Shown here: positions 67 to 58,313 of the stretch, in pieces
How positions within the stretch are numbered: position 1 is the first letter of the stretch
Layout: each line of letters opens with the position of its first letter
DNA from: Histomonas meleagridis
Lineage: Eukaryota > Parabasalia > Tritrichomonadida > Dientamoebidae
Length of the DNA stretch: 64,000 nt
Direction of reading: 5' to 3'
Assembly (NCBI GenBank): GCA_020186115.1
Contig: WSYJ01000063.1
Span: forward strand, 124,001-188,000
Notes under the pieces: generated by a model
Told to the model about the DNA's origin: nothing
Databases searched by the model: none
Seen by the model: only the letters and a program-made list of their open reading frames with translations
Position numbers and translations under genes: made by a program

Positions 67-3000
67 ATGAGCTCATACAGTAGTAGTATCACGAGTTATA
101 CTTCTGATAGTTCTGATACTGACTCTTTTAGTGAATCAGAAATATATAAAAATGCCGCCATTGACATTTATTTAATTTATTTGAAGATTATTTTGATCAT
201 TTAATATATTTTTTCTTTATATGATCCTCCCTTAATAAATGCTGTTAAACTTAAAAACTTAAACAAAATTAAAGAGCTTCTTGAGGATAAAGGAATTGAC
301 ATTAATGCTAAAGATATTTAAACACTTTATTTAAAGATCAAATTAAAAATTTGATAATTCAAAACTATATTTGGAAATTATTTAAATTATTTAAAACAGC
401 ACTTATGTGGGCAGCTGAAACATATCGCTATCAAATTACTCAATTACTTCTTGACCAAGAAGGAATTGACATTAATGCCAAAGATATGAATTTCAAACAT
501 TTAATATTTTTTTCAAAAATTTCATATATCATTTTTAGATTTGGAATTTCTTATAAGATAATATGTTAGCCATTCATCATGCAATCAAAAATGGAAATAT
601 ACAATCTTTCGATGCACTTATGAAAAAAAAAGGATTTGATGTAAATGCTAAAGATGTTTCTTCAATACATTTGAAATTTACTGTTTTAATTTAATGTTTA
701 TAAATTATATTTGGAATTCATTAAAATTATTTAATACATGTCTTATGTATGCTGCAGAACAAGATTCATTTTCCTTTATTTCAGATCTCCTTAAAGAAGA
801 TAATATTGATCTAAATGCAAAGAATATTTATTTGATAGTATTAAAATTCATTTTAATGATTTGATATTTGGTAATCATTTTTGGAATTTATTCATTGTTT
901 TCTTAACAGCTCTAATGTTTATAGCTAAAAGCGGGAACAATTTGAATTTATCTACTTTCTTTCGTACAAATAAAAGAGTTGATACGGAAACCAAAGACAT
1001 TTTTTAATTTAATTTAAAATATATTTTTATTATTTAATATATCAAAATAAAATTCGGTGTTTTTTTATAATATTTAAAACTGCTGTTATGCATGCACTAG
1101 AAAGTGATCATCCAAATTTTGCTGAAAAAATTAAAAGTGAGATTGAAAGGCATAATTTTGATTTTTGTTTCAATATTTTCTTGTTTTTATAGATTATTTA
1201 AACAACATTTCATTGATGCATGCGAAAATTCGAAATTAGATGAAGTTAAATCATTTCTTGAAAGGAATGACGTTGATGTCAATTGTGAGTTTGTTTATTT
1301 AATTAATTTTTTGGTATTTTATTATATTATTTAAGACACCATTAAAAGCTGCTTGTAATTCTGGTGCTATAGATGTTGTTAAATTACTTCTTCAACAGAA
1401 AGGAATTGATGTTAATAATGCTGCCATTTGTTTAACATGTTTGATATTTAATTCAATAATTTTATATTTTAAAATAATATTTGATAATTATTTTAAATAT
1501 TTTATTCACCACTGTTTATTGCAATTAAAAATAATAATATAGAATTGGTAAAATTACTTCTTGAGCATGAAGGAATTGATGTTAATATTGAAAAAGTCAA
1601 ATATACTAATTTTCTATTTCAAAATAATATTTCGTATTAATTTAAAATTTTTGGGACACCATTGTTATTTGCATTTGAAAATGGTTGTAATGAAATATTT
1701 AAATTACTTCTTGAGCATAAAGACATCAACATCCATGTTACAGCTATTAATTTATAATGTTTTCAATTTGCTTTGATTATTTTTTATTTCAATATTATAT
1801 TTGGAATTTATTTACTTTATTTAAGCCATTCATGGATTTAGTATTTGAAAAAGGCGATCCTGATTTATTATTAGCACTTGTACGAAAAGAAAATATAAAT
1901 TCTGTAATTAAAGTTTTTTTATTATTATTGAAATTTGTATTAATCATTTTGGATTTAATAATATTATTTAGAAATTATTCATAATATTTTCTTTACCAAT
2001 TGTTCATGCTATTGAACATGAAAAAAATGAATTTGCTAAATTACTTCTTGAACAAAAAGATTTTGATGTTAATGCACAAGATATTTATTTGTTTTATATG
2101 ATATTTATATTATTAAATTAACGTTTCAATATATTATTAGGAAATTGTTTAAATTTTTTCAAACAGCGCTTATGGAAGCAGTCTTTTCTGGTAATATTGA
2201 AATGATTAAATTACTTCTTGAAAAAGACGGAATTGATGTTAATGCGCAAGATATTTATTTGCTTTATATGATATTTGTTGTAATAATTTGTGATTTCAAC
2301 ATAATATTTGGAAATCATTAAAATTATTTGAATCAGCACTTTTGATAGCATTATTCGATAGTGATTTTGATATAGTTAAATTACTGATTGATCATAAAGA
2401 TATTAATGTCAATATTAAAAATATTTTTTTGAATGATTTGAAATTTATTTTAATAATTTAAAATTTCATAATTTTAATTGGAGTTTCTGTTTATTATTTG
2501 CAACTCCATTATTACGTGCAGCTAAAAGTGCTAAAGTTAAAGTTATTCAATTACTTACCCAAAAAGAAGGTCTTGATGTTAATGCTCAAAATATTTTTTT
2601 GTATTATTTAAGATTTCAAAAAATTATTTAAAGTTTCCAAAAATTATTCGGAAATTATTTAATTTATTTGAAACAGCACTTATCATATTAACTAAACGAG
2701 AAAAGTCAAAAGGTGTTAAGTTACTTCTCGAGCAAAAAGGAATTGATGTCAATATTCAAGATATTAAATTGTTTTATTTAATATTTATTTCAATTATTTA
2801 CGATTTCAAGACAATATTTGGAAATCATGCAAATTATTTAAAACAGCACTTATGTATGCAGCTAAATTTGAGAATGCTGAAATTATTCAATTACTTCTCA
2901 CTCATAAAGGAATCGATTTTAGTCTTAAAGATATAAAATTTATTTATTTAATGTTTGTTTCAATATTTTAAGGTTTTAATATATTGTTTGGAATCGATTT

Positions 3001-3069
3001 TAAATATTTAAAACACTAAGTGATTATCTTCCATTGACTCAAGAAGACATTAATCTTCTTTCCAAATAA
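67..3069 (+). CDS. Ankyrin-repeat gene split into 18 single-repeat units by AT-rich spacers (array G1)
   Basis: The ATG at 67 opens a Ser-rich first segment (to about 165) containing repeated Ser/Thr-Asp. A TCACA initiator-like box lies just upstream at about 53. Eighteen ankyrin units follow, for example TALMWAAETYRYQITQLLLD near 400 and TALMEAVFSGNIEMIKLLLE near 2166. Each is about 30 codons, open, and ends D/N-I/V. They are separated by stop-rich spacers that I count, in order, as 60, 80, 74, 80, 80, 80, 40, 52, 80, 60, 80, 77, 80, 80, 80, 80, 80 and 80 nt from the D-position codon to the T-position codon. The last unit (TLSDYLPLTQEDINLLSK) ends in TAA at 3067-3069. The units are very divergent from one another yet uniformly open, which suggests a translated protein with the spacers removed. 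Unspliced, the longest product would be short. Ankyrin solenoids usually bind proteins; the target is unknown. Confidence 0.6.
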
Positions 3070-6158: not shown

Positions 6159-6355
6159 CAATAACCGAAATTGTAGTTTTACGTTTTAGGTGATATTTCT
6201 TAAGAAAGTAAAATAAATTTTCATATTTCGATATGGTTACAACAAATAATAAAGTCAAAATGAAATTTAATATATATTTCTTCCCATTCGAATTTTATTA
6301 AAATAGTTCATAATTGTTATTTTTTTTTTAATTTTCTATAGAAAAAATAGAATAA

Positions 6356-9300
6356 TTATTCTTTGTTTATATAATGTTTAAGTATTTTAACAATTTCTAT
6401 GTGATCATTTTCAGATGCATAAATAAATGCTGTTTTAAATATTTTGAACAATTTCCAAATATTCCATAAAATTATCAAATTATTGAAATAAAATTTAAAT
6501 AAAATAAATAAATATCTTTCGTATTAATATCAATTCCGTCTTGTTCAAGAAGTAATTTAACTATTTCTGTATAACCATTATAAGATGCTATAATAAGTGC
6601 TGTATCAAATATTTTAAATAATTTCCAAATATTATTTTTAAATTTCAAATTATTAAAATAAATATCAAATAAAACAAATAAATACCTTTAGTGTTAATAT
6701 CAATTCCTTCTTGCTCAAGAAGTAATTTAACTATATCTGTATGACCATTATAAGATGTCCAAATAAGTGCTGTATCAAATATTTTAAATAATTTTCAAAT
6801 ATTGTTTTGAATTTTCAAATCATTAAAATAAATATTAAATAAAACAAATAAATATCTTTAGCATTAATATCAATTCCTTCTTGTTCAAGAAGTAATTTAA
6901 CTATTTCTGTATGACCATAAGAAGATGCCAAAATAAGTGCTGTATTAAATAATTTAAATAATTTCCAAAGATTATTTTGAAATCCCAAATTATTAAAATA
7001 AATTTTAAATAAAACAAATAAATATCTTTAGCATTAATATCAATTCCTTCTTGTTCAAGAAGTAATTTAACTATTTCTGTATGACCATTCCAAGATGCAA
7101 ACATAAGTGCTGTATTAAATAATTTAAAAAATTTCCAAATATTATTTTGAAATAAGAAATTATTAAAATAAATTTTAAATAAAGCAAATAAATATCTTTA
7201 GCATTAATATCAATTCCTTCTTGTTCAAGAAGTAATTTAACGATTTCTGTCTCGCCATTTTGGGATACATACATAAGTGCTGTTTTAAATAATTTAAATA
7301 ATTTCCAAATATTATTTTGAAATATCAAATCATTAAAATAAATTTTAAATAAAGCAAATAAATATCTTTAGCATTAATATCAATTACTTCTTGTTCAAGA
7401 AGTAATTTAACGATTTCTATATTACCATTTGAAGATGCCCAAATAAGTGCTGTTTTAAATAATTAAAATTATTTCCGAATATTATATTGAATTTTCAAAT
7501 TATTAAAATAAAAATCAAAAAATTAAAACAAATTTCATTTTATCAAAATAAAAATCAAAATATTAAAACAAATTTCATATTATTCAAACAAATTTCAAAT
7601 TATTTAAACAAATTTCAAATTATTCAAATAAATTTCGTATAAATAAAACGAATTTTATTTTAATAAAATAAATAGTTTTAACATTGGTATCAATTCCTTT
7701 TTGATTTAAAAGTAATTCAACCACATCTGTTTTATTTCTTTTTACAGCATAATAAAATGCTGTTTTAACTTATCAAAATAATTTCCGAATATTATGTTAA
7801 AATACGAAATTATTATAAGAATTTTTACATAAAAAGAATAAATATCTTTAGCATTTATATCAATTCCTTCTTGTTTAAGAAGTAATTGAACCACTTCTAT
7901 ATTACCATCATGAGATGCACACATAAATGCTGTAAAAAATATTAAATTTAAATACCAAACATTAAATTGAAAATTCAAATTATTTAAATAAATAGTAAAC
8001 AAAATATGTAAATATCTTTAGCGTTGATATCAATTGTCTTTTGTTTAAGAAGTAGTTCAATAATTTTTATATGTTTAAAGAGACATGCATATATAAAAGC
8101 TGTTTGAAATAATCTAAATAATTCCCAAAAATGATTTTGAAATAGCAAATATTAACAACAAACGCATAACAAAACAAATAAAAATTATTAGCATTGATAT
8201 CAATTCCATTTTGTTCATGAAGTAATTTAACTACTTCTCTGTGACCATTTTTAGAAGCAAACATAAGTGCTGTATCAAACAATTTGAGTAGTTATCAAAT
8301 ATTGTTTTGAAATATAAAATTATTAAAATAAATATAAAATAGAACGAATAAATATTTTTAGCATTAATATCAATTCCTTCTTGTTCAAGAAGTAATTTAA
8401 CAGTTTTTGTACGGCCATTCCAAGACGCTTCCATAAGTGCTGTATTAAATAATTTAAACAATTTCCAAAAATTATTTTGAATTTTCAAATTATTAATATA
8501 AATTTTAATAAAAACAAATCAATGTCTTTAGCATTAATATCAATTCCTTCTTGTTCAAGAAGTAATTGAACTATTTTTTTATAACCTTTTTGTGATGCAA
8601 ACGCGAGCGTTGTTTCATATATTTTGAATAATTTCCAAATATTATTTTGAATCCCAAAGCTAATTAAAAAAATCTCAAATAAAATAATTAGTTACCTTTG
8701 GCATTAGGATCAATTCCTTTTTGTTCTAAAAGATATTTAACAAGTTCACGATTATTTGATCTTACAGAAAAAATTAAAATATCTTTTGGAATTTGATTGC
8801 TTTGTAGTAAATATTTCAAGAGAAATATATTTCCAATTCTTGCTGTCTCATCAATAATGTCATCATCAATTTTCATTCCTTTTTTTAGCAAGAATGCAAA
8901 AATTTCATAATTATTATATAAAATACAACTTTCTCCTAATTCTTCTAACGTATCAATCTCTTCTAATTTATTTTCATAAACATAATAAAAGACATCATTT
9001 CGATGGAATTCAATTGCAGTTTCATATGCACCTTCAAATGATGAATGATTTTGTTCACATAAATGAATGATTTCTTCATTTCCACCTGCAATTGCATATT
9101 TACCTGTATCTTCTACATTTGCATTGTTCATAAGTAAATATTTGAAACATTTAACTGAAGAAAAAAATGCTGCATAATCAATTAATGTAACATTTGGTTT
9201 GTTAATAAATGAATATCTTTCATAAAGTGATGGTTCAATTATTTGATTAAAATTGAAATTTGTTTGTGATGATATTTCTTGAAGTTTTTCTATTTCATCA

Positions 9301-9903
9301 TTTCGAATGATTTTTGTAATTTCATTCGGATTAACTCCTTCTTTTGCTAATTGCTTATGAAGTTCCCAATCATTCTTTGAAAGTTCTTCAACGTTTTGGA
9401 TAAATTTACGCCATAATATAGTTGCTAATTTTTTCTCAAAGAAATCATCAGAATATCTTGGATATTTCTTTAATTTCTCGATATTATTTTCTTTATCAAA
9501 TTGTATAAAATATGTTGAATAAATATCATCGAAATATTTAGAAGAAATTAAATTTTGTTCATACATTTTTTCTATAATATAATTCCCTCCACTTGTGTTA
9601 AATAATCTCTTAAGTGACTTAGTAAAAATTTTTACAATGTTAATTTCATTTTTATTGAAGAAATTTCCCAGTTCAATGGAACTTCAAAAGTAAATCTGCA
9701 TCATAACCATGTGAGCAATAAAAACAAAAAGCAATATTACAAATGATTGATATAGAAGAGTATGGGTTATTTGTATCAAAAATTTTTGCTATTTTTTGGA
9801 TAACTTCTTTAACATTATTTTCTTTTAGCCCAAAAATAATGTAATTAAGTGATTTTAAAATGTCTAGATATTCATTTTTTATTTCTTGATTGGAAGAAGC
9901 CAT
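6356..9903 (-). pseudogene. DUF3447/ankyrin gene with N-terminal frameshift and about 13 spaced ankyrin units (array G2)
   Basis: The gene starts at ATG 9903 (MASSNQEIKNEYLD) and reads to DADLLLKFH*, ending at 9673. The homologous protein resumes in another frame (ELGNFFNKNEINIV, leading into MYEQNLISSKYF at 9566), so there is a one-base frameshift near 9670-9695. The 9566-8688 segment carries the helical region and a DUF3447-type block (KYAIAGGNEEIIHLCEQNHS; EFHRND), ending GIDPNAKGN just before the first spacer. About thirteen ankyrin units follow, down to a final one (TAFIYASENDHIEIVKIL) that ends in TAA at 6356-6358. One spacer I counted (about 7121-7200) is 80 nt. The one at about 7480-7680 is expanded by 20-nt repeats. 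Apart from the frameshift the units are open. It may be a pseudogene, or the shift may be an assembly error or an unrecognised intron. Confidence 0.55.
7480..7680 (-). repeat. Expanded spacer made of about 20-nt tandem units
   Basis: Between two ankyrin units the normally 80-nt spacer has grown to roughly 200 nt. It is made of near-identical 20-nt units on the forward strand such as AAATTTCAAATTATTTAAAC followed by AAATTTCAAATTATTCAAAT. The unit size matches the 20-nt quantum of spacers elsewhere in the window. Confidence 0.7.
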
Positions 9904-10777: not shown

Positions 10778-11020
10778 AATTTTAACTTTTTTTTAATTTT
10801 CCCGAACAAACCAAGTCAAATAATTTTGAACGTTATTAATCCCCAAAAAATTCTTTTCTAATAACACTTAGCAAAAATAAGTTATATAACTTATTGATTA
10901 CATGTAATGTTTGATTGTTTTATTTTGTAAAATATATATGGGAAATGGCTGGATATTTTGTTTTGATTTAAATCAACAAACCCAATTTAAACGGTTTTGT
11001 CGGTTTCCCGGGAGATTTTA

Positions 11021-13372
11021 ATGAGCTCACCAACATTACATTCTCTTCAAAGAATCATTTTCAACATCAGTAGCAACTCCGTTAATTTGTCGATTATTGC
11101 AGTAAGGAAATATTTAGATCCGGAGTATGGATATTCAGTCAACCAAATAATAAGCATATTAATTTATTCAGCATTTTGTTCCAATAGCAAGGAAGATGAG
11201 ATGTATTTGGACTACATTAAGTTAGTAGATCGTCTAGAAAAAGAACTTCATTTTACATATACATTAATCTATGTTTTTTCCCAATATCTTTTAGGAATTC
11301 AATCTCAAGAAGCGGATTTCCTTCTTGCTCGAATGATTGATCAAGAAATGATATCCTCTAATCTTGTATTATGTCGCAAAACTTATTTTCTTGCACATGT
11401 TAAAGAAAACCGCGTTTTTTACAACAAAGAAAACGTCCCTTTCGCTAATTACTTTGAAGAAAATGTCTTAGAATCCATACAAAGCGAAGGGTGGGATTAT
11501 CATAAATCACTTGCATTAAAAGGAGTTAATACTAATGAATTAACTCAATTCGTTCGTGAAGATGATGAACGAAATTTACGCGAAACATTAACATCCAATA
11601 AATTTACTGGAACAATTCCATATAACATTGAACCTGATTTATTTGAACGATGTTCATATATTAATGATTATTCATATCCATTAATATTTCATGCAGCATA
11701 TTTTGGATCGATTAAATGTTTTAAAACAATTAAAAATATATATAACGATAAATTTAATGAAATATTAAACGAAACAATTAATAATAAAGATTTAGAAGCA
11801 TTTGCTGTAGCAGGAGGAAATTATGAAATAATTGACTTATGTAAATCACCAATTCAACAATCAGTTTATGAATCTGCAGTACGTTTTCATCGCGATGAAA
11901 TATTTTATCGACTTTTCGTACAAAATAATATGAATTTAAGTTTGATTGGTAATTCACCAATTTTATGTGTGAGATATGGTAACTTCGATGTGTTAACTTT
12001 CCTTGAGGATAATGGATTAAAAATTACGAATGAGCTTTTGGAAGAGGCGTTTTTATCAGGAAATATATTCCTCGTGAATTATTTCCTAGTGAAATTGCCG
12101 CTGCCAGAAAACGCTTTTCTTTTAGCTGTTAAATCTGGTAACGTTGATTTAGTTGAATATATACTGAAAAGAAAAGATGTTTTAATTGGGACATGTGATG
12201 AGTTTCTTTAATTTTTTTCGTTTTTTATATATTTTTAATGTTTTTTTGTGCTTCTTGATTGTAATGCTTTAATGTACGCTTGTAAGAAAGGTTGGGAAAA
12301 TATTGTAAATATTATCCTTGACTTAATGAAAAATCGTCCACAAAATACTAATCCAAAAATGGTGATAGATATTAATGCAAAAGATATTTATTTGTAATAA
12401 TTTATGTTTAATTTTTTGTGTTTCATGTTACAAATTTTTATTTGATATTTATTTGTGTCATTTAAAACAGCTTTAATAAACGCATGTTGTTATGGTCATG
12501 TTAAAATTGTTACAACTTTACTTTCATTTCCAGGAATTGATCTTAATATTCAAAGTGTTTAATTTCGAACTTTTAAAATTTGTTTTTATATTTTTATGTT
12601 AAAAAATATAATTTGGAGTTTTAAAGTGATTTTTTGGAATGCTTTAACTTATGCATGTGATCGAGGTTTTCTTAATATTGTTAAATTACTTGTATCTAAA
12701 GGTATTGAAGTATATGTATATGATATTTTAATTTATGATTTAAAGTTTATTTTGAAGTTTTGATATTTGATTTTAATTTTTGGAATTTGTTCATTTTATT
12801 TGATACACCAATAACAATTTCATGTGATGGAAATCTTGATGTTCATTTAGAAATTGTTAAATATTTACTTAATTCTGGTAAATATAATGTAAATAATTGC
12901 GGAATTTGTTTATTTGCTTTGTCGTTTATTTAATCAATTTAATGGTATTTATTTGTTTCTCTTCAATCTTTATTGATCTCGATAGCAAAGAGTGGAAATC
13001 TTACATTGTTAGATATGGCTCTTAGTCAGAAGGGTGTTGATGTAAATCCAAGAGATGTTAAAATTTTTTATTTGAAGTTTATTTTATTTGTTTGATGTTT
13101 TTCTTCTGTTTTTGGAATTTATTAACCTGATATAAGACACCACTTATATTGGCAGCTGAATATGGTAATACTCAAGTGGTAGAAATACTCGCTCAAAGAG
13201 AAGGAATTGATATAAATGCAAAATCAATTTATTCAAAAATTTTAATGTTTTTTATCAATTTTCGAAATTTACTTTGTGGTTTTGGTATTTATTTATATGT
13301 ATTTGTACAGCCTTAACTTATGCAAACAGAAATGGTCAAATCGGACTCTCTAGACTATTATCACAGGATTAA
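11021..13372 (+). CDS. DUF3447/ankyrin gene with seven spaced C-terminal ankyrin units (array G3)
   Basis: A long first exon-like ORF begins at ATG 11021 (MSSPTLHSLQRI) and ends near 12200 in CDEFL. The ORF is open further upstream only through a TTG. It has an N-terminal helical region and a DUF3447-type block (FAVAGGNYEIIDLCKSP; FHRDEIFYRL). Ankyrin units then resume after spacers at about 12263 (NALMYACKKG), 12467, 12638, 12803, 12967, 13136 and 13310 (TALTYANRNG). I count spacers of 63, 81, 81, 80, 63, 80 and 80 nt. The last unit stops at TAA 13370-13372. AAACGGTTT at 10989-10997 is a candidate promoter motif. Ankyrin domains of this type in trichomonads have no assigned function. The first exon is complete, unlike its relatives at 6.4-9.9, 31.8-33.6 and 37.0-39.2 kb. 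Confidence 0.65.
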
Positions 13373-13478
13373 AAATTAGTAAAAAAAAAAGTTTATTGCT
13401 TAAGAATTTGAAGAATTTTTATTTTGAGAAAAAACGTTAAATTTGTGTTTGGGGTGCTCTAACGATAGAGTGTAAAAA

Positions 13479-31560: not shown

Positions 31561-31769
31561 TTTCCTGTTAGTTTATAAGTAAATTAAACTTGAATTATCA
31601 TGAAATAGATATATTTAAATTTTACTTAATTAAATATTCGATTAAATTTTTATCAAAAAATATTTTTGCATGGAGGGTGGAATTAAATTGTTTGAAAATG
31701 GAATACATTATAGTGTTACAATTGGGATAATTCAAATATTTGAATTTATTTAGTAAAAATCACATTAAA

Positions 31770-33551
31770 TCATTCATGTTTAAGAAGTAATTTAACTATT
31801 TCTGTATTACCTTTTTGAAATGCTTTCATAAGTGCTGTTTGAAATATTTTGAATGAAATCCAAATTTTATGTTTTAACATAAAATTATTATAAAAAATTT
31901 TAAATAAAATATTTAAATATCTTTAGCATATATATATATCAATTCCTTCATGTTCAAGAAGTAATTTAACTATTTCAACATATGAATTATTAGATGCATA
32001 AATTAATGCTGTCCACAATATTTTAAATAATCACCAAATGTTAATTTAAAACAGACTATAATGGAAATATATATGAAATGAATGATATAAATATCTTTAA
32101 CATTTACATCAATTCCTTTTTTTGTAAGAAGTAATTTGACTATTTCTGTGTGTCCATTTTGAGAAGCATACATAAGTGCAGTCCAAAATTTAATGAATAA
32201 TTTTCAAATATTATTTTACGATTCCAAATTTATAAAAAGAAAATTTTTAGCGTTAACATCAATTCCTTCTTTTGCAAGAAGCAATTTAACTATTTCAACA
32301 TATCCATTATATGATGCAGCTATAAGTGCTGTTTTAAACAATTTAAATTATTTCCAAATATTATTTTGAAATAAAAAACAAATAGAACATATATCAGGGA
32401 AAAGAAGAAAATAGTTTTATCATTGAAATTAATTTCTTTTTGTTCAAGAAGTAATTTAACTAAATCTGTATAACCATAATAAGAAGCATCTATAAGTGCT
32501 GTATTAAATAAAATAAATTATTTCCAAATATTATTTTAAAACATATAGTTATTAAAATGTATAATAAATAAAACGATCAAATATTTTTTGCGTTAATATC
32601 AATTCCGTTTTGCTCAAGAAGTAATTTAAATATTTCTTTTTGACCATTTTTAGATGCATACATGAGTGCTGTATTAGATGATTTCAATAAATTCCAAATA
32701 TTATTATTAAATATTTTATTAATAAATTTAACATTAATTAACAAATATAAATATTTTTTGCATTTATATTATTCATAAGTAAATATTTTAAACATTTAAC
32801 TGATCCAAAAAATGCTGCATAATCAATTAATGTAACATTTTTTTTTATTTATAAAAGAACATCTTTCATAAAGTGATGGTTCAATTATTTGGTCAAAATC
32901 AAAATCATTTTGTGATGATATTTCTTGAAGTTTATCGATTTCATCATTTCGAATTATTTTCGCAATTTCTAATGGATTAACTCCTTCATGAATTAATTGC
33001 TTATGAAGTTCCCAATTATTCTTTGAAAGTTTTTCGATATTTTTGATGAAATAGATATAAAATGGAATTCTGATATTATTCTTTAAAAAATCCAATCTTT
33101 TAGATGATAAACAGTGCGCAAAATAAAAAGTTTTTTTGTTTTCAACTAAATTTGAATTAATTAAATTTAATTCTATCATTTTCTCAAGAAGAAAATATGA
33201 TTCCTGGGTATCTAGTTCAAAAAGAAATTGTGAAAATGTATAAATTATTGCACAGCCTTTGTTATCTTCTTCTTTGTTTTCGATTTTTTGTATGAAATTA
33301 AGAAATATTTGAAAGTCTTTCTTATGCGATTGAAATGCTGAATAAATAAACTGACAAATAATCATATTGAAAGAAGGTAAAATATCATATTTAACCAAGT
33401 TTGTAATTTTTTCAACAATTTCATCGCCATTATCTTCTTTCAAATCAAAAATTAGTTCCTCAATAGTTTCCAAAATTTGTGTCCATTTGATACTAGGGAA
33501 GCACGTGGGTGATTCTATTTTATCTTTTCCGTTTTCGTATTTATTTAACAT
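31770..33551 (-). pseudogene. DUF3447/ankyrin gene with homopolymer frameshift and internal deletion (array G4)
   Basis: ATG 33551 (MLNKYENGKDKIES) opens an N-terminal domain homologous to the other six genes (ELSKNNWELHKQLIHEGVN-type motif; LYERCSFINKK). At about 32838-32848 an A run shifts the frame: the protein reads CYIN* where its relatives read NVTLIDYAAFF. In the +1 frame it continues LIDYAAFFGSVKCLKYLLMNN. It then jumps directly to INAKNI, so the DUF3447 block (KYAVAGGNEEII...EFHRND) is missing, as if deleted by recombination between similar Asn-rich ends. About seven ankyrin units with spacers follow; the one I counted near 31850-31930 is 80 nt. The last unit ends KHE-TGA at 31770-31772. 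The lesion could be an error in the A run, but the deletion is real. Confidence 0.6.
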
Positions 33552-36968: not shown

Positions 36969-39198
36969 TTAAATATTTTTAACATTAACATCAATTCCTT
37001 CTTGTTCAAGAAGTAATTTAACTATTTTTGTATAAGCATATTCAGATGCTATCATGAATGCTGTTTCAAATATTTTAAACAATTTCCAAATATTATTTTA
37101 AAATTTCAAATTATAAAAAGAAATTCTAAATAAAAAAAATAATTATTTTTTGCATTAACATTTATTACTTTTTGTTCAAGAAGTAACTTAACCATTTCTG
37201 TATGACCATTTGCTGATGCAAACATAAGTACTGTGTTAAATAATTTGAATAATTTCCAAATATTATTTTCAAATTAAAAATTATTTAAATAATTTTTAAA
37301 CAAAACAAATAAATACTTTTAGCATTAATATCAATTCCTTCTTGTTCAAGAAGTAATTTAACTATTTCTATATGACCATTTGAAGATGCAAACATAAGTG
37401 CTGTTCTAAATAATATAAATAATTTCCAAATATTATTTTAAAATAAAAAATCATTAAAATAAATAAAATGAATAAATATTTTTAGCATTAATATCAATTC
37501 CTTCTTGTTTAAGAAAGAATTGAACGATTTCTGTGTAACCGTTTGAAGATGCCCAAAAAAGTGTTGTATCAAATAATAAAAACAATTTCCTAATATTGTT
37601 TTGAAATGTAAAATTATTAAAATAAATAATAAATAAAACAAATAATTATTTTTTGCATTAACATCAATTCCTTTTTGTTTAAAAAGCAATCGAACTATTT
37701 CTGCATGACCATTTGATGATGCCTTAAGAAGTGCTGTATTAAATAATTTGAATAATCTTCAAACATTATTTTAAAACAAAAAAATATTAAATTAAATATT
37801 AAACAACATAATTTAATATCTTTAGCATTAATATCAATACCTTCTTGTTCTAGAAGTAATTGAACTATTTCAATGTAATTAAATTCAGATGCCAAGATAA
37901 GCGATGTTTTAAATAATTTAAATAATTTTCAAATATTATTTTCAAATTGAAAATTATTAAAATAAATTTTAAATAAAGCAAATAAATATCTTTAACATTA
38001 ATATCAATTCCTTTTTGTTCAAGAAGTAATTTACTATTTCTGTATGACCATTTTCAGATGCATAAATAAGTGCTGTTTTAAATAATTTAAGTAATTTCCA
38101 AATATTATTTTAAAATTTTAAATAAAACAAATAAATATCTTTAGCATTAATAACAATTTCTTTTTGTTTAAGTAAAAAGTTAAATATTTCAGTATTTAAA
38201 AATTTATTAGTTAAAAATAATACGACAAACTCATTAGAATTTTTAATTTTTTCAATTTTATTTTCATAAAGGTATTTAAAGATATCATTTCGATGGAATT
38301 GAATTGCTGCTTCATGTGCACCTTTAAAAGATGAATGATTTTGTTCACATAAATGAATGATTTCTTCATTTCCACCTGCAACTGCATATTTACCTGTATT
38401 ATTTACTTTTGCACCATTCATAAGTAAATATTTAAAACATTTAACTGAAGAAAAAAATGCTGCATAATCAATTAATGTAACATTTTCTTGATTAATAAAA
38501 GAACATCTTTCATAAAGTGATGGCTCAATTGTTTGATTAAAATTAAAATTTTGTTGCGATGATATTTCTTGAAGTTTATCGATATCATCAGATCGAATTA
38601 TTTTTGCAATTTATAATTGATTAACTCCTTCATGAATTAATTGCTTATGAAGTTCCCAATCATTCTTTGATAATTCTTCATAACTTTTATTATGATATTT
38701 ATAATGTTTGTAGTGATTTCTTAAAATGCTTGTTGGTTTGTTTGGAAAATGATGTGCAAAATAAAAATTGTTTTTATTTTCAACTGTTTTTGATGAAACC
38801 AAACCCAATTCGATCATTCTTTCGAGGATAAAATTTGATTCTTGTGAGTTTACGTTAAGAAGAAAATCTCTAAATCTATTAACCAATTCATAATTTTTCA
38901 TTTTAAATTCTTTTTCTTTGTTTTCAATTTGCTTAATGAAATTAATATATAAATTAAAGTCTTTCATTTGCGAAAGAATTGATGAATATATTAATTGACT
39001 TAAAATTAAGTTTGAGTAATGAGATACATTATCATTTATTATTATATTCATGGATGAAATGATGGATTCAACAATGTTATCTTCACTCAAATTAAAAATA
39101 ATTTCTTCAAGCTTTTCTATGTCTTGCATAAACTTTGGTAGAGTAAATGGTCGTTTAACATTTCTTTGTGCGCTCTTTTTGCTGTGACTGTTTCCCAT
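36969..39198 (-). pseudogene. DUF3447/ankyrin gene with one in-frame TAA and a myristoylation-type N-terminus (array G5)
   Basis: ATG 39198 gives MGNSHSKKSAQRN, a good N-myristoylation signal (Gly2, Ser6, following Lys). The N-terminal domain runs to GVNQL* at 38611-38613. That TAA stands where relatives have a codon in NPNEIxKIIRNDEIEK, and the same frame then continues uninterrupted (IAKIIRSDDIDKLQEISSQQ). It goes through the DUF3447 block (KYAVAGGNEEIIHLCEQNHSS; QFHRND) to INAKDI at about 38120. So a single nonsense codon breaks an otherwise intact first exon. About nine spaced ankyrin units follow. One spacer I counted near 37070-37150 is 80 nt. The last unit ends in TAA at 36969-36971. 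Confidence 0.6.
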
Positions 39199-51845: not shown

Positions 51846-52372
51846 TGTTTCGATGACGTGTTTTATTCATATATCAAAAATGCTCAGAGAAAATTTGAAG
51901 GCAAAATATTTTTTTTTAATCTTTTTGTAAAAAATGCATAGGTAGCTTCATTATTGTTATTCAGCAATCACTATTATAGTGCCAAAATGATCCCTCATTA
52001 TTTCGGGTGAAGAAATATTTCATAGTACATTATCCAATCATTTGAGCAAGATGAAAATAGTAAATATAATTTCTTTATGCTTATTTATAGGACTGAAATG
52101 CTAGATAACCTCTATATGGAGGGTTCTTAAAAATAAAGTCCTTTAAACCCAACAAAAAGATTGTCCAAATCACATACATGTTTTAACTCAATTGAAAACC
52201 AAAAATATGAATCTTATCAAGAAATGAATGAAAAATTATCATTTGGTACCTTTTGTGATGGTTTCTCAATTTAATTTCGACTCAATATCAAACGTAAACT
52301 ATAGAAATGAATCGCTTTTTGATTTAAAAAGGAGGCCGTTTAAGTTTCGCCAAAATCTCGTACGTTTATTTG

Positions 52373-52378
52373 TCATTT
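52373..52378 (+). promoter_or_regulatory. Initiator TCATTT of ankyrin gene G6
   Basis: TCATTT ends 6 nt before the ATG at 52385, a perfect fit to the trichomonad Inr consensus. It shows that at least this spaced ankyrin gene keeps a normal promoter, and it excludes the upstream TTG frame extension. Confidence 0.5.
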
Positions 52379-52384
52379 ATTAAA

Positions 52385-55300
52385 ATGGAACTCTTAGAAG
52401 CTTTAGAATCCATAATTTTCAAGCTTAAAATAGAAAATATTGAAACAGCTGTTCAATCAACACTAAATTTATTTGATGATAACTTACCATATACATTTAA
52501 TCTTTTTGTATCGAAGTTATTATATACAGCTTTTGTTGTTCAAACAATTGACAAAAAGACAATTTTTAAATATTTAATTGAATTACAATCAAAAGAAGAA
52601 AAAGAAAAAAATGAATATAACCTATTTAATATCTTTTGTCATTATGTAATTAGATTAGAGTCGCAAGAATCATATTGTCTCCTTGAAGAAATGATTGAAC
52701 AAGAAATGGTCCCGCAATACCTTGTTAAAAAACTGAATACTTTATATTTTTCTCAATATAAAACAAAAAAAGAAATTCAAACTCAAAAATCGTCTAGACC
52801 AAAATTCTATGATAAATTCATATCAAATATTAAAGAACTATCAAAGGATGATTGGGAACTTCATAAGAAATATGTTAAAGAAGGAATAAATCCGAATGAA
52901 ATTGCAAAATTGATTCGAAATGATGAAATCGAAAAACTTCAAGAAATATCATCAGAACCAAATTTCAATTTTAATCAAACAATCGAACCATCACTTTATG
53001 AAAGATGTTCATTTGTTAATCATCCAGATGTTTCACTAATTGATTATGCAGCATTTTTTGGATCTGTTAAATGTTTTAAATATTTACTTATGAATGGTGC
53101 AAATGTATATAACACAGGCAAATATGCAGTCGCAGGTGGGAATGAAGAAATCATTGATTTATGTGAACAAAATCATTCATCATTTAAAGATGCATATGAA
53201 GCAGCAATCGAATTTCATCAAAATGATATTTTTAAATATCTTTGTGAAAATAAATTAAAGACTGATAAAAAAATTATTCAACAAAAATCACTTATTTCTC
53301 TAGGGAAAAAATGTTTGGAACTTAATAACTATAAAACTTTATCATTTTTAGAAAAGGAAGGTCTGGAAATTGAAAAGATTATTGTAGATGCTGCATTAAA
53401 TGATAATACTTTTTTGATGAAAAATGTTGAAAAAATACAAATTCCAAATGCAATTTTACCAAATTTAGTTGAATCAGGAAATATAGAAATAGTAAAATTA
53501 CTTTTAGATAAAGGAATTGATTTTAATGCAAAGAAAATTCATTTTAATAATTTGGAATATGTTTTAATAATTTATAATATGTTTTAATAATTTATAATAT
53601 GTTTTAATTATTTGGAATATATTTTAATAATTTAGAACATGTTTTAATAATTTGAAACAGCACTTCATATTGCAGTTAGAATTAATAATATAGAAATAGT
53701 AAAATTACTTTTAGAAAAAGGAATTGATGTCAACGTAAAAAGAATTCATTTGAATAATTTGAAATATGTTTTAATTATGTGAAACACCACTTCATATTGC
53801 AGTTAAAAATAATAACATCGAAATAACAAAATTACTTTTAGATAAAGGAATTGATGTTAATGCAAATAATATTCATATTACTAATTTAGAATATATTTTA
53901 ATAATTTGGTATATGTTTTAATAATTTGAAACAGCACTTCATATAGCAGTTAGAAATAATAACATAGAAATAATAAAATTACTTTTAGAGAAAGGAATTG
54001 ATGTTAATGAAAAAACTATTCATTTGAATAATTTGGAACATGTTTTAATAATTTAGAATATATTTTAATAATTTGGAATATGTTTTAATAATTTGAAACA
54101 GCACTTCATACAGAAGTTAGAAATAATAACATAGAAATAGTAAAATTACTTTTAGAGCAAAAAGGAATTGATGTTAATGCAAAATATATTCATTTTAATA
54201 ATTTGAAATATGTTTTCATTATTTGAAATATGTTTTAATAATTTGAAACAGCACTTCTTATTGCAGTCAAAAATAATAATATCAAAATAGTTAAATTACT
54301 TTTAGAGCAAAAAGAAATTGATGTTAATGCAAAAAATATTTGTTTGAATTATTTATAATATGTTTTCATAATTTGAAATATGTTTTAATAATTTGAAACA
54401 GCACTTCTTATTGCAGTCAAAAATAATAATATCGAAATAGTTAAATTACTTTTAGAGCAAAAAGGAATTGATGTTAATGCAAAAAATATTCATTTGAATA
54501 ATTTTTTATATGTTTTAATAATTTGGAATATGTTTTCATAATTTGAAATATGTTTTAATAATTTGAAACAGCACTTCATATAGCAATTAAAAATAATAAT
54601 ATCGAAATAGTAAAATTGCTTTTAGAACAAAAAGGAATTGATGTTAACGCGAAATATATTTGCTTTAATAATTTGAAACAGCACTTCATATAGCAATTAA
54701 AAATAATAATATCGAAATAGTAAAATTGCTTTTAGAACAAAAAGGAATTGATGTTAACGCGAAATATATTTGTTTGAATAATTTAGAATATGTTTTAATA
54801 ATTTGGAATGTGCTTTGATGATTTGAAACAGCACTTCATATTGCAGTTAGAAATAATAATATCGAAATAATAAAATTACTTTTAGAGCAAAAAGGAATTG
54901 ATGTTAATGCAAAAAATATTCGTTTTAATAATTTGAAACACCACTTCATATAGCAGTTAAAAATAATAATATAGAAATAGTAAAATTACTTTTAGAGAAA
55001 GGATTTGATGTTAATGCAATAAGTATTCATTTGAATAATTTAATATATGTTTTAATAATTTGGAATATGTTTTAATAATTTGAAACAGCACTTCATATTG
55101 CAGTTAAAAATAATAATGTAGAAATAGTAAAATTACTTTTAGATAAAGGAATTGATGTTAATGTAAAAACTATTTATTTGAATAATTTGGAATATGTTTT
55201 AATAATTTGAAACATCACTTCATATAGCAGCTAGAAATAATAATATAGAAATAGTAAAATTACTTTTAGAGAAAGGATTTGATGTTAATGCAATAAGTAT

Positions 55301-55933
55301 TAATTTGAATAATTTAATATATGTTTTAATAATTTGGAATATGTTTTAATAATTTGAAACAGCACTTCATATAGCAGTTAGAAATAATAATATAGAAATA
55401 ATAAAATTACTTTTAGAGAAAGGAATTGATGTTAATGAAAAAAATATTCATTTGAATAATTTGGAATATATTTTAATAATTTGAAACAGCACTTCATATA
55501 GCAGTTAGAAATAATAACATAGAAATAGTAAAATTACTTTTAGATAAAGGAATTGATGTTAATGCAAAAAATATTCGTTTGAATAATTTATAATATGTTT
55601 TATTAATTTAAAGCAGCACTTCATATAGCAGTTGAATATAATAATATAGAAATAGTAAAATTACTTTTAGAACAAAAAGATGTGATTTTTAAAGAAAAAG
55701 CAATTTATTTAAATAATTTTATGAACTACTTTATTTAGCAGTTGGAAATGATCATATGGAAATGGTTAAATTATTATTAAAACAAGAAGGAATCTATACC
55801 AACAAAAAAATAATTTATTTGTATAATTTTATATTTATATCAATTTCTTTATAACGCTTTGTTAATTGCATCAGAAAATGGTTACATTGAAATCGTCAAT
55901 TTTTTAAATAATTTAATTAAGAATCATTTTTAA
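52385..55933 (+). CDS. DUF3447/ankyrin gene with about 17 spaced ankyrin units (array G6)
   Basis: First exon from ATG 52385 (MELLEALESIIFKLKIENIE) to about 53540: N-terminal helical domain, ELSKDDWELHKKYVKEGINP, IEPSLYERCSFVN, the DUF3447-type block (KYAVAGGNEEIIDLCEQNHS; EFHQNDIF), then the first ankyrin half (NIEIVKLLLDKGIDFNAK). All of it is intact. Units reading TALHIAVRNNNIEIVKLLLE then repeat. The first fifteen spacers that I counted are 120, 40, 60, 80, 60, 60, 80, 20, 60, 20, 60, 40, 60, 40 and 40 nt. These units are near-identical (recent tandem duplication). The last ones diverge (LLYLAVGNDHMEMVKLLLKQ; NALLIASENGYIEIVNFLNN) and end in TAA at 55931-55933. This is the best-preserved member, with a promoter box and no lesion in exon 1. 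Confidence 0.7.
53530..55730 (+). repeat. Compound tandem array: about 90-nt ankyrin units alternating with 20-nt minisatellite spacers
   Basis: Higher-order repeat of a coding unit of about 90 nt plus n copies of a 20-nt unit (consensus GGAATATGTTTTAATAATTT). A fixed 20-nt minimum is followed by 0 to 5 extra copies. Two consecutive units around 54570-54760 are identical over more than 90 bases, showing very recent duplication. Spacer sizes fall in all three classes modulo 3, so the reading frame would be lost unless the spacers are removed. Confidence 0.85.
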
Positions 55934-56612
55934 TGTTATTTGGTTCTGATAATAAAAATTCAGTGCACCATTGTTTTAACTATAATGAAAAATTTGATAT
56001 TTTTTTGAATTTTGAGCCAAGGTTACAAGGTTATATTTGGTATTGTCTTTTGACTTGGTGAACTCTAATTATATAGGCATGTTAGATATAGGCGGAATAT
56101 TTTTTACAATACATTGGAATGTAGGATTTTTTTGTAAAATGTAATCACATGTCGCATATATCATTCAAAAAGTGTATTGTATGCTTTACATTTATAATAC
56201 GATCATAAGTAACACAAAAAGTACGAGATGTCAAAAGATCGATTTCCGACCGTTAATGCATTTTGACAGAAAAGACGATCATTAGCCGTTGAATGGTTAA
56301 CATTTTCAAAAAGTTCTATCTTAAACGAAACTTTTTCAAACTATACCGATAACAACCACTGAAATTGAATTAAAAGCAAAAAAGTTGATCTAAAATCTAC
56401 AATAAAGTATTCAAAAAGTGGATAATATTTTGACAAACTCCACATTTTGAATCGACGATGATCGTATCGATATTTGGTAAAGTATTCAAAAAGTGGATAA
56501 TCTTGCTCGAAAAATGTCTACACCATATTACTAAATTTTTTAATAATTATTAATAATTATGGCAAAAATTCTGAAAGTCATTTTACTGTACATTTGTTTT
56601 GTTTAACTAAAT
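55934..56612. other. Intergenic between convergent ankyrin arrays, with 23-bp direct repeats
   Basis: About 680 nt. A perfect 23-nt direct repeat starting AAAGTATTCAAAAAGTGGAT occurs at 56404-56426 and 56479-56501, 75 bp apart. A related ATTCAAAAAGTGTATTG lies near 56163. The segment is less AT-biased than the arrays and contains TGACAAACTCCAC and GATCGTATCGAT. No ORF. Confidence 0.5.
56404..56501 (+). repeat. Perfect 23-bp direct repeat pair
   Basis: AAAGTATTCAAAAAGTGGAT followed by AAT is present at 56404 and again at 56479. Between the copies is an inverted-looking TTGAATCGACGATGATCGTATCGAT. Purpose unknown. Confidence 0.7.
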
Positions 56613-58313
56613 TTAGGTTGCTCCTTTTTCTTTGAGAATTCTAATTACTTCCATAAGAGGACTATTTCTCTGCAAAGCAGCCACAGGTGGTAAACGAATT
56701 CTTGCCAACTTGAGTGCAGTATAAAATAATTAAAATAATTTCTAAATATTATTAATAAAAATCAAATTATTAAAATAATTTTTAAATGAACCAAAAAAAT
56801 ATTTTTGGCATTAATATCAATTCCTTTTTGCATTAGAAGTAATTTAACTATTTCTGTTCGACCATAACCAGAAGCATACATAAGTGAAGTCCAAAATAAT
56901 TAAAATAATTACCAAATATTATTTTGAATTTCCAAATTATTAAAATAAGTATTAAATAAATCAAATAAATATCTTTGGCATTAATATCAATTCCTTTATG
57001 TTCAAGAAGTAATTTAATAATTTCTTTATGACCATTTTCAGATGCTTTCATAAGTGCTGTTCTAAATAATTCAAATAATTACCAAATATTATTTTGAATT
57101 TCCAAATTATTAAAATGAATATTAAATAAATCAAATAAATATCTTTGGCATTAATATCAATTCCTTTATGCTCAAGAAGTAATTTAACTATTTCTGTATG
57201 ACCATTTGCAGATGCCAACATAAGTGCTGTATAAAATAATTTAAATATTTCCCAAATTTATTTAAGAAATCCAAAATTATTAAATTAAATATCAAATTAG
57301 ACAAATAGAGATCTTTGGCATTAATATTGATTCCATTTAGTTCAATATTTCCTTTTTCTGCCGCTTTAACAAGTGGAGTTTTAAATAATTTTATTATATT
57401 TTATTTTAAGTAAAAATAAATTAAATAATAGAAATGAATATCATTTAGGTCTATTTCATTAATATTATAAATATTAATTCCATTTTGTCGTAGAATTAGT
57501 CGTTTTTTTATATTTTCATCTCTTTCTTTGATGTACTTATCTTTCATATTGATTAATTCTTGATTTTTCATTTTCAGTTCATGAATTTCCTTTTCTAATC
57601 CATTTTCTCTGGAACGAGTTTCTTGAATTACTTTTTGCAATTCGATTTCTTTTTTCTTCGATTCTTGAATTTCATTTCGCAATAACAGAATATCCTTTTG
57701 TAATCCATTTTCTCTGGAACGAGTTTCTTGAATTACTTTTAGGAATTCGATTTCTTTTTTCCTTGTTTCTTGAATTTCATTTCGTAATAACTGAATTTCC
57801 TTTTCCAATTCATTTACTCTTTCATTCGATTCTTGAATTTCGTTTTGAATTATCTAAACTTCAAAAAAACTTTTTTGATTTTCATCTCGTCTATATTCTG
57901 ATAATGTAATGTTTCATCGATTTCATCATTTATATTTTGGGCTGCTGTTTCATTAATCATATCAAATTTGATATAAAAATATTGATAAAAATAAGTAAAT
58001 ATTTTTCACTGTAATTTTGTTCGTTACACTTTGTTTAAGAAGTAATTTCACAATTTCATTATGTTTATTTTTAAGTTCACATGAAAGATTATCCTAAAAA
58101 AATATTAAAAATAAATAATAAAAAATATAAAATAAAGTCTTGTATATTGGTTTCTATATCTCCTTTTTGAAGTAATGATTGAACAATCTCAAAAGATCCA
58201 TTTTGAGTTGCGAACATTAAAGGTGTAATAAACATATAAAAAGTACATCAAATAGTAATTTACAACATTAAATAAAAATAACAATCATCTTTTTCATTAA
58301 AATCATTCAGCAT
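56613..58313 (-). CDS. Ankyrin gene with internal coiled-coil segment and short first exon (array G7)
   Basis: ATG 58313 (MLNDFNEKDD) opens a very short first exon, with the initiator TCATTT at 58319-58324. Units resume as TPLMFATQNGSFEIVQSLLQ (about 58229) and ELKNKHNEIVKLLLKQ (about 58090). A segment TAAQNINDEIDE is followed, after an apparent frameshift and TAG near 57850, by a heptad region (57808-57470) of two 43-residue near-copies (LLRNEIQE...KEIE...KVIQETRSRENG). Ankyrin units return from 57380 down to a divergent last one (TALKLARIRLPPVAALQRNS...RILKEKGAT) that ends in TAA at 56613-56615. A spacer I counted near 57060-57145 is 80 nt. The middle may be decayed, and the joining of segments is inferred. 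Confidence 0.5.
57470..57808 (-). repeat. Internal coding duplication in the coiled coil of G7
   Basis: Two copies of a block of about 130 nt. Each encodes an EIQLLRNEIQE-like segment, then KKEIE(F/L)(L/Q)KVIQETRSRENGL. They are nearly identical in DNA (CTTGAATTACTTTT... on the forward strand), implying a recent duplication inside the heptad region. Confidence 0.7.

Follow-up and report, generated by a model that had tools for sequence, protein, structure and literature searches.

The DNA stretch analyzed here, referred to as the window, comprises 64,000 nucleotides (nt) of Histomonas meleagridis (positions 124,001 to 188,000 of contig WSYJ01000063.1), and close to its start it carries a gene for ankyrin repeats (67-3069, forward strand) whose coding units are separated from each other by short spacers. 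In the initial annotation this array was described as split by stop-containing spacers; the split is real and reaches far beyond this one gene. The parts of the array are as follows (positions within the window, strand in brackets).

67-3069 (+): whole split ankyrin gene, comprising 17 ankyrin-like units and 18 spacers between a first block and a TAA-bearing last block
67-165 (+): first coding block, with ATG, Ser-rich, 33 codons, C-terminal end ...NAAID
166-225 (+): spacer 1, 60 nt
226-315 (+): ankyrin unit 1, 30 codons, end NAKD
316-395 (+): spacer 2, 80 nt
396-485 (+): ankyrin unit 2
486-565 (+): spacer 3, 80 nt
566-655 (+): ankyrin unit 3
656-735 (+): spacer 4, 80 nt
736-825 (+): ankyrin unit 4
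826-905 (+): spacer 5, 80 nt
906-998 (+): ankyrin-like unit 5, 31 codons, end placed by hand
999-1078 (+): spacer 6, 80 nt, edge placed by hand
1079-1162 (+): ankyrin-like unit 6, 28 codons, diverged, end placed by hand
1163-1202 (+): spacer 7, 40 nt, edge placed by hand
1203-1292 (+): ankyrin-like unit 7, diverged, end placed by hand
1293-1335 (+): spacer 8, 43 nt (40 plus one codon), edge placed by hand
1336-1425 (+): ankyrin unit 8
1426-1505 (+): spacer 9, 80 nt
1506-1595 (+): ankyrin unit 9
1596-1655 (+): spacer 10, 60 nt
1656-1745 (+): ankyrin unit 10
1746-1825 (+): spacer 11, 80 nt
1826-1912 (+): ankyrin-like unit 11, 29 codons, end placed by hand
1913-1992 (+): spacer 12, 80 nt, edge placed by hand
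1993-2082 (+): ankyrin unit 12
2083-2162 (+): spacer 13, 80 nt
2163-2252 (+): ankyrin unit 13
2253-2332 (+): spacer 14, 80 nt
2333-2422 (+): ankyrin unit 14
2423-2502 (+): spacer 15, 80 nt
2503-2592 (+): ankyrin unit 15
2593-2672 (+): spacer 16, 80 nt
2673-2762 (+): ankyrin unit 16
2763-2842 (+): spacer 17, 80 nt
2843-2932 (+): ankyrin unit 17
2933-3012 (+): spacer 18, 80 nt
3013-3069 (+): last coding block (TLSDYLPLTQEDINLLSK), including TAA

The ATG and TAA with which the array was said to open and close are both present in its first and last blocks. Eighteen ankyrin units had been claimed; our count is 17 ankyrin-like units, 18 being the number of spacers. Successive blocks start 159, 170 (four times), 173, 124, 133, 170, 150, 170, 167 and 170 (six times) nt apart, and the 12 of 18 distances that measure exactly 170 nt (a 30-codon unit plus an 80-nt spacer) bear out the earlier count of 12 spacers of exactly 80 nt. 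With unit ends placed in whole codons, and by hand in units 5, 6, 7 and 11, the array contains 14 spacers of 80 nt, two of 60 nt, one of 40 nt and one of 43 nt; the two 60-nt spacers and the 40-nt spacer agree with those reported before, while the lengths of 74, 52 and 77 nt given for others depend on the placement of the unit ends.

The comparison was extended to the organism's own genome (43.28 Mb, 121 contigs). The sample of 23 sequences combined the window with the 20 loci (9.9 kb each) that gave the top matches to the DUF3447 domain and with two short loci out of five found with a spacer as query (the remaining three overlap those two). The DUF3447 search scored the best 150 of 1695 candidates; searches of the own genome in general covered the best candidates, and their counts are lower bounds. 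The domain has at least 150 matches there. Of the 21 large sources, 18 carry an array with three units or more, and the arrays total 31. The sample was picked by family membership and gives no frequency of spacers outside the ankyrin/DUF3447 family. In the 262 kb sampled, 19 matches to a spacer profile scored above 5 bits at more than 200 nt from any same-strand unit; the three strongest scored about 15 bits, against 10.5 for the best null, and lie just past an array in locus L019 (two) and near a lone unit in locus L029 (one).

A frame-blind DNA profile of the unit gave 360 matches, of which 299 cover at least 71 of the 90 positions; the same profile gave none in block-shuffled sequence. The expected frame is open in 285 of the 299 units, eight containing a stop and six a frame-breaking length change, while a shift of the frame by one leaves 25 of them open and a shift by two leaves 1. 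No broken unit was seen in loci L018 (27 units) or L033 (32 units), whose units are diverse in sequence. Moreover, the ratio of nonsynonymous to synonymous differences per site (pN/pS) was 0.57-0.64 for 13 structural ankyrin positions, compared with 0.91-1.09 for six variable ones; the site classes were set by us from the ankyrin consensus, and the unit pairs are not independent. Twelve of the 31 arrays were followed to their ends: eleven close in a unit with a stop before its 30th codon, and the twelfth runs off its locus. As for the spacers, three in four of those of 80 nt hold a stop in the upstream frame, the stop-free fraction being 25% in that frame, 40% in the downstream frame and 0.5% in the third; stops in every frame, as initially described, are thus found on average, not in each spacer. 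The units are under coding constraint and the spacers are without it. One full protein would then need every spacer to be removed or skipped, and the earlier proposal that selection maintains such a protein is partly supported by this contrast.

Two ways of reading straight through the spacers were tried and rejected. In-frame reading through spacers of 60, 63 and 66 nt meets a stop in 24 of 33 (hand count), and a programmed -1 frameshift finds an open path in 112 of 183 80-nt spacers (95 +/- 5.5 after column shuffling) and none in the other 71.

The same data bear on the possibility that the arrays are decaying pseudogenes, their frames open through youth or chance. The broken units (14 of 299), the two stops apiece in the arrays of L035 and L017 and a young, irregular array at 53-56 kb of the window would fit decay; however, the diverse units of L018 and L033 are all open while the spacers of all arrays taken together mostly contain stops, and we regard this explanation as highly improbable.

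A further alternative is that only the N-terminal block is translated, ending in the first spacer, and that the array downstream consists of silent ankyrin cassettes kept open by recombination with coding units. The variable positions of the units differ equally at synonymous sites, so block exchange between units is likely, and some close pairs have near-identical spacers while their variable positions differ blockwise, synonymous sites included, as by exchange; in addition, N-terminal open reading frames (ORFs) of about 400 amino acids terminate in the first spacer. On the other hand, the gene at 67-3069 has just 33 codons ahead of its first spacer, and 95% open frames, codon-sized length changes and the stops of the last units themselves fit reading to the end. 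The two spacer-less relatives examined (L036 and L037) have different linkers and units. Silent cassettes are rather unlikely in our opinion.

Spacer length is highly regular. Among the 252 distinct spacers of the sample (those between intact units, up to 140 nt, a 220-nt gap being excluded), 183 measure 80 nt; the remainder measure 63 (16 spacers), 60 (13), 81 (7), 66 (4), 40 (4), 20 (3) and 77 nt (3), with one or two spacers for each other length. Exact multiples of 20 nt account for 205 of the 252, and 236 are a multiple of 20 nt plus or minus up to three codons, lengths which cover 36 of the 101 values from 20 to 120 nt; by eye, an additional codon ahead of a 60-nt spacer would explain most of the 63-nt spacers, and a codon ahead of an 80-nt spacer a single 83-nt one. 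Self-identity within spacers is 0.52 at lags of 20 and 40 nt, compared with 0.40 in shuffled spacers and about 0.41 at lags of 19 and 21 nt (84 spacers less than 75% identical). These peaks, together with the fit of the lengths, indicate that a spacer is a row of 20-nt modules, in every one of which TTT is conserved. Spacers change in length by steps of 20 nt and units by codons.

The edges of the spacers are also fixed. The 5' edge is RTT, and the first spacer codon is ATT, ATA or ATC in a ratio of 133:7:2, compared with 582:309:82 for Ile codons within units; RTT is thus fixed at the DNA level, beyond codon usage. At the other side, a TTTGG motif lies about 22 nt upstream of the next unit. 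Outside the young array, 141 of 181 spacers of 80 nt have GG at positions -23,-22 from the 3' edge, compared with 10 of 181 at the matching place of the preceding module. GG was also found at -23,-22 in 15 of 20 spacers of 63 or 66 nt, in 8 of 10 codon-shifted 80-nt spacers and in the single 100-nt spacer; it was rarer in other 60-nt spacers (1/7) and those of other lengths (7/17), and in the young array it was seen in 1/2, 4/6 and 2/8. Since its distance is constant across spacer lengths, it is the 3' edge to which the motif is anchored. The fixed edges and the modular length suggest that the spacer as such is recognised.

We then considered which junctions between units would be free of stops. 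Among the 183 80-nt spacers, stops are absent from the first codon and from the two final codons, whereas they occur in the second codon of 13 and in the third codon from the end of 16. A uniform edge that keeps nine nt (71 nt removed) leaves a stop in none of the 183 junctions for four edge choices, and the same holds when six nt are kept. The excision of 68 nt leaving four codons, which had been predicted, fails as a uniform cut, because with twelve nt kept, 12 or more of the 183 junctions contain a stop at any edge; it is possible if the edge varies from spacer to spacer, failing then in 2 of 183 only. The uniform stop-free junction keeping most sequence would thus be the one with nine nt (D-I|F-K-T), giving 33-residue repeats; keeping six, three or no nt at a uniform junction is also stop-free.

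Known mechanisms were examined for their signals. When pairing of the spacer ends was scored, register 80 was the best of 29 (0.549, the next 0.535), yet without covariation (z 0.0). The absence of conserved GT...AG borders noted initially holds in the larger sample: an in-frame, stop-free GT..AG is possible in just 29 of the 183 80-nt spacers, the other 154 allowing none, and the branch motif CTAAY occurs in 8 of 183. Trichomonas-type intron patterns with gaps of up to 38 nt gave no match in the own genome, where the Trichomonas 3' intron motif ACTAACACACAG alone stayed at background (3 matches vs 2 in the reversed control). The same genome encodes PRP8 in an ORF of 2333 amino acids and contains a U2 with GTAGTA (reverse-complement reading) and, just under the cut-off, a U6 with ACAGAG; taken together, these make it very likely that a spliceosome exists. 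U1 was not found there by the Rfam model, a miss that says little. This background level of the 3' motif contrasts with the canonical look of U2 and U6 and with the 573 introns reported in the literature. If the spacers were ordinary GT-AG introns with misplaced borders, the probable spliceosome and the ACAG that T-A codons often produce at the 3' edge of the spacer would be accounted for; the scarcity of usable GT..AG pairs and of CTAAY, together with the failure of the Trichomonas-type patterns, makes this extremely improbable.

Alternatively, the ribosome may skip every spacer (translational bypassing) and resume in the next unit. Spacers with stops and without splice signals would be expected in this case, bypassing of short gaps is known from 81 places in one yeast mitochondrial genome (passages of PMC5009743), and half of the 16 complete relatives from a second source end one codon past a unit (see below). 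Nevertheless, no matched hop codons were found at the spacer edges, which counts against bypass of the T4 type and less against that of the yeast type, for which the same passages of PMC5009743 describe perfectly matched codons as absent in several cases and mRNA context as seemingly irrelevant. Folding of the spacers was not above that of shuffled ones (mean z of the minimum free energy 0.07, n=88), and up to 27 hops per mRNA would be required (L018). On balance we judge bypassing improbable.

Relatives were also searched outside the sample. A protein search with the 405-amino-acid ORF of the window (52370-53587) returned 69 matches, and a profile search 62. Seventeen of the 69 proteins (P0001-P0018 without P0016; 41-57% identity) come from a second source. 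Eight of its 16 complete proteins end one codon past a unit, with Ile or Val at that place in seven of the eight (hand count), and each of these ends would correspond to a stop codon, as judged from the protein sequences. P0009, from the same source, continues across a stretch that resembles a spacer, and T-A-L could be reached 80 nt further on. In P0078, from a further source, a 25-residue spacer-like insert lies between two units near residues 640-718 and the early repeats have short linkers, perhaps an intermediate state. From these protein ends, P0009 and P0078, the spaced arrangement is probably older than H. meleagridis. When the joined-unit end of P0005 served as query, 8 matches came from 28 candidates, none of them labelled Histomonas. 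Among GTDB contigs, 39 pattern matches included one relative, L043 (CALUSQ010000040.1, 4005-4745). It carries the first part of a DUF3447-type gene, nearly identical to P0002 and cut off by the contig end; its bin yielded no ankyrin unit, and scans of viral contigs gave no match. The L043 contig, which also has an ORF resembling a transposase by eye, is filed in a metagenome-assembled genome of Candidatus Gastranaerophilales, and its place in a bacterial bin is likely due to eukaryotic contamination.

Given that the units are coding and the spacers are not, removal is the best account of these arrays. Each unit of about 30 codons would act as an exon, and each spacer as an intervening sequence of 20-nt modules, mostly four, that would be cut from the RNA under the guidance of the edge motifs together with length; the joined units would then form one long ankyrin solenoid. 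We rate at about 0.5 the probability that every spacer is removed from the RNA in this manner, as an undescribed kind of intron; removal, its occurrence at the RNA level and its guidance by motifs and length are inferred. More tentatively, and with less confidence than in removal as such, the spacers could represent a nuclear class of intervening sequences outside the described introns, with 20-nt modules, usually four, of fixed length, with neither GT-AG, branch site nor paired ends, and with a precise cut after each ankyrin repeat; the repeats would then serve as interchangeable cassettes for diversified ankyrin binders.

Several observations weigh against removal. Of the 299 units, 14 are broken. 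A comparison of nonsynonymous and synonymous substitution rates (dN/dS), which had been suggested as a check, was run between units, and while the structural positions (pN/pS 0.57-0.64) agree with constraint, all sites together do not: dN/dS was 0.66-1.26 by distance bin, with its peak in the closest pairs, and pN/pS was 0.82 across 34 independent closest pairs. Purifying selection is therefore visible only by site class, with classes that we set from the ankyrin consensus. That the nine nt are free of stops carries little weight, since every module conserves TTT. The linkers of spacer-less relatives are four residues long and not three (KTNK, DIDR and FFNR in L037, which itself carries a frame break); P0005 likewise has a four-residue linker, VMFE. 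The three 20-nt spacers, all within the 53-56 kb array, would give an intron of only about 11 nt, and the example of very short introns quoted in passages of PMC6679479, 15 nt, is longer. Finally, only one protein (P0016) among the 69 and 62 matches is labelled Histomonas; the DUF3447/ankyrin family seems largely unannotated in this organism. Passages of PMC10063853 list a unigene, "KN motif and ankyrin repeat", with mass-spectrometric measurements; it is not tied to the family.

The window contains six more arrays (two on the forward and four on the reverse strand), as follows.

6344-9566 (-): gene with a 292-amino-acid DUF3447/ankyrin ORF (8688-9566), then spaced units (array 6344-8783)
10997-13396 (+): gene with a 404-amino-acid DUF3447 ORF (10997-12211), then diverged spaced units (array 12263-13226)
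31749-32672 (-): spaced array, 6 units
36975-38226 (-): spaced array, 7 units (36975-38076) and a first unit; frame break in one unit
52370-55942 (+): gene with the 405-amino-acid DUF3447 ORF (52370-53587) and young array 53450-55942
56801-57379 (-): short spaced array (56801-57230)

Of the four window ORFs submitted, three gave a Pfam match to ankyrin repeat / DUF3447, and the ankyrin unit profile matches as well; the arrays are best regarded as real genes of a large ankyrin family. In the reverse-strand array at 6344-8783, 12 gaps measure 80 nt and another 220 nt; this long spacer (7454-7673) is 11 x 20 nt, with a 20-nt tandem array listed at 7493-7673. In the young array (53450-55942, forward strand) the spacers measure 20, 40, 60, 80 and 120 nt and are made of near-identical 20-nt modules, which seem to have been gained and lost singly. 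Next to the short array, a reverse-strand ORF (57401-57808) contains a 105-nt tandem repeat encoding a charged, coiled-coil-like stretch.

If removal is correct, inserts with stops would be taken out by the hundred (the sample by itself has 252) without the usual intron signals and in 20-nt steps. This would mean a removal mechanism new to science in a turkey parasite for which passages of PMC8529796 describe introns as scarce; the gene finder used there was trained with a transcriptome. A large ankyrin protein family, seemingly for the most part missed by annotation, would also come to light. No report of such spacers was found in the literature searched, which covered few subscription journals and no bioRxiv preprints.

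Among known systems, the Tritrichomonas ankyrin/DUF3447 proteins P0025 and P0079, together with L036 and L037, share a related N-terminal domain and the type of repeat; in the stretches examined, however, their repeats are joined by coding linkers, and Tritrichomonas is known here from predicted proteins alone. Trichomonas vaginalis, also a parabasalid, has short intervening sequences, but the 63 introns described in passages of PMC12316389 have GT/AG borders, a long motif at the 5' end and a branch site that forms one unit with the 3' site, none of which the spacers have. T4 gene 60 and the mitochondria of Magnusiomyces capitatus (PMC5009743) resemble the present case in that genes contain gaps which have to be bypassed, the yeast having many of them in its genome; here the genes are nuclear, no matched codons or folding were found, and the gap stands at a fixed site of the repeat with a modular length. 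A further likeness is with the noncanonical introns of diplonemids and euglenids, which lack GT-AG borders and lie in nuclear genes of protists (abstract of PMC12621601, passages of PMC11170887); according to these sources diplonemids keep a U2-type spliceosome, which very likely exists here too. The ends of those introns can pair, whereas our spacers display neither covariation nor an excess of folding, and within one repeat family their length is quantised in 20-nt modules.
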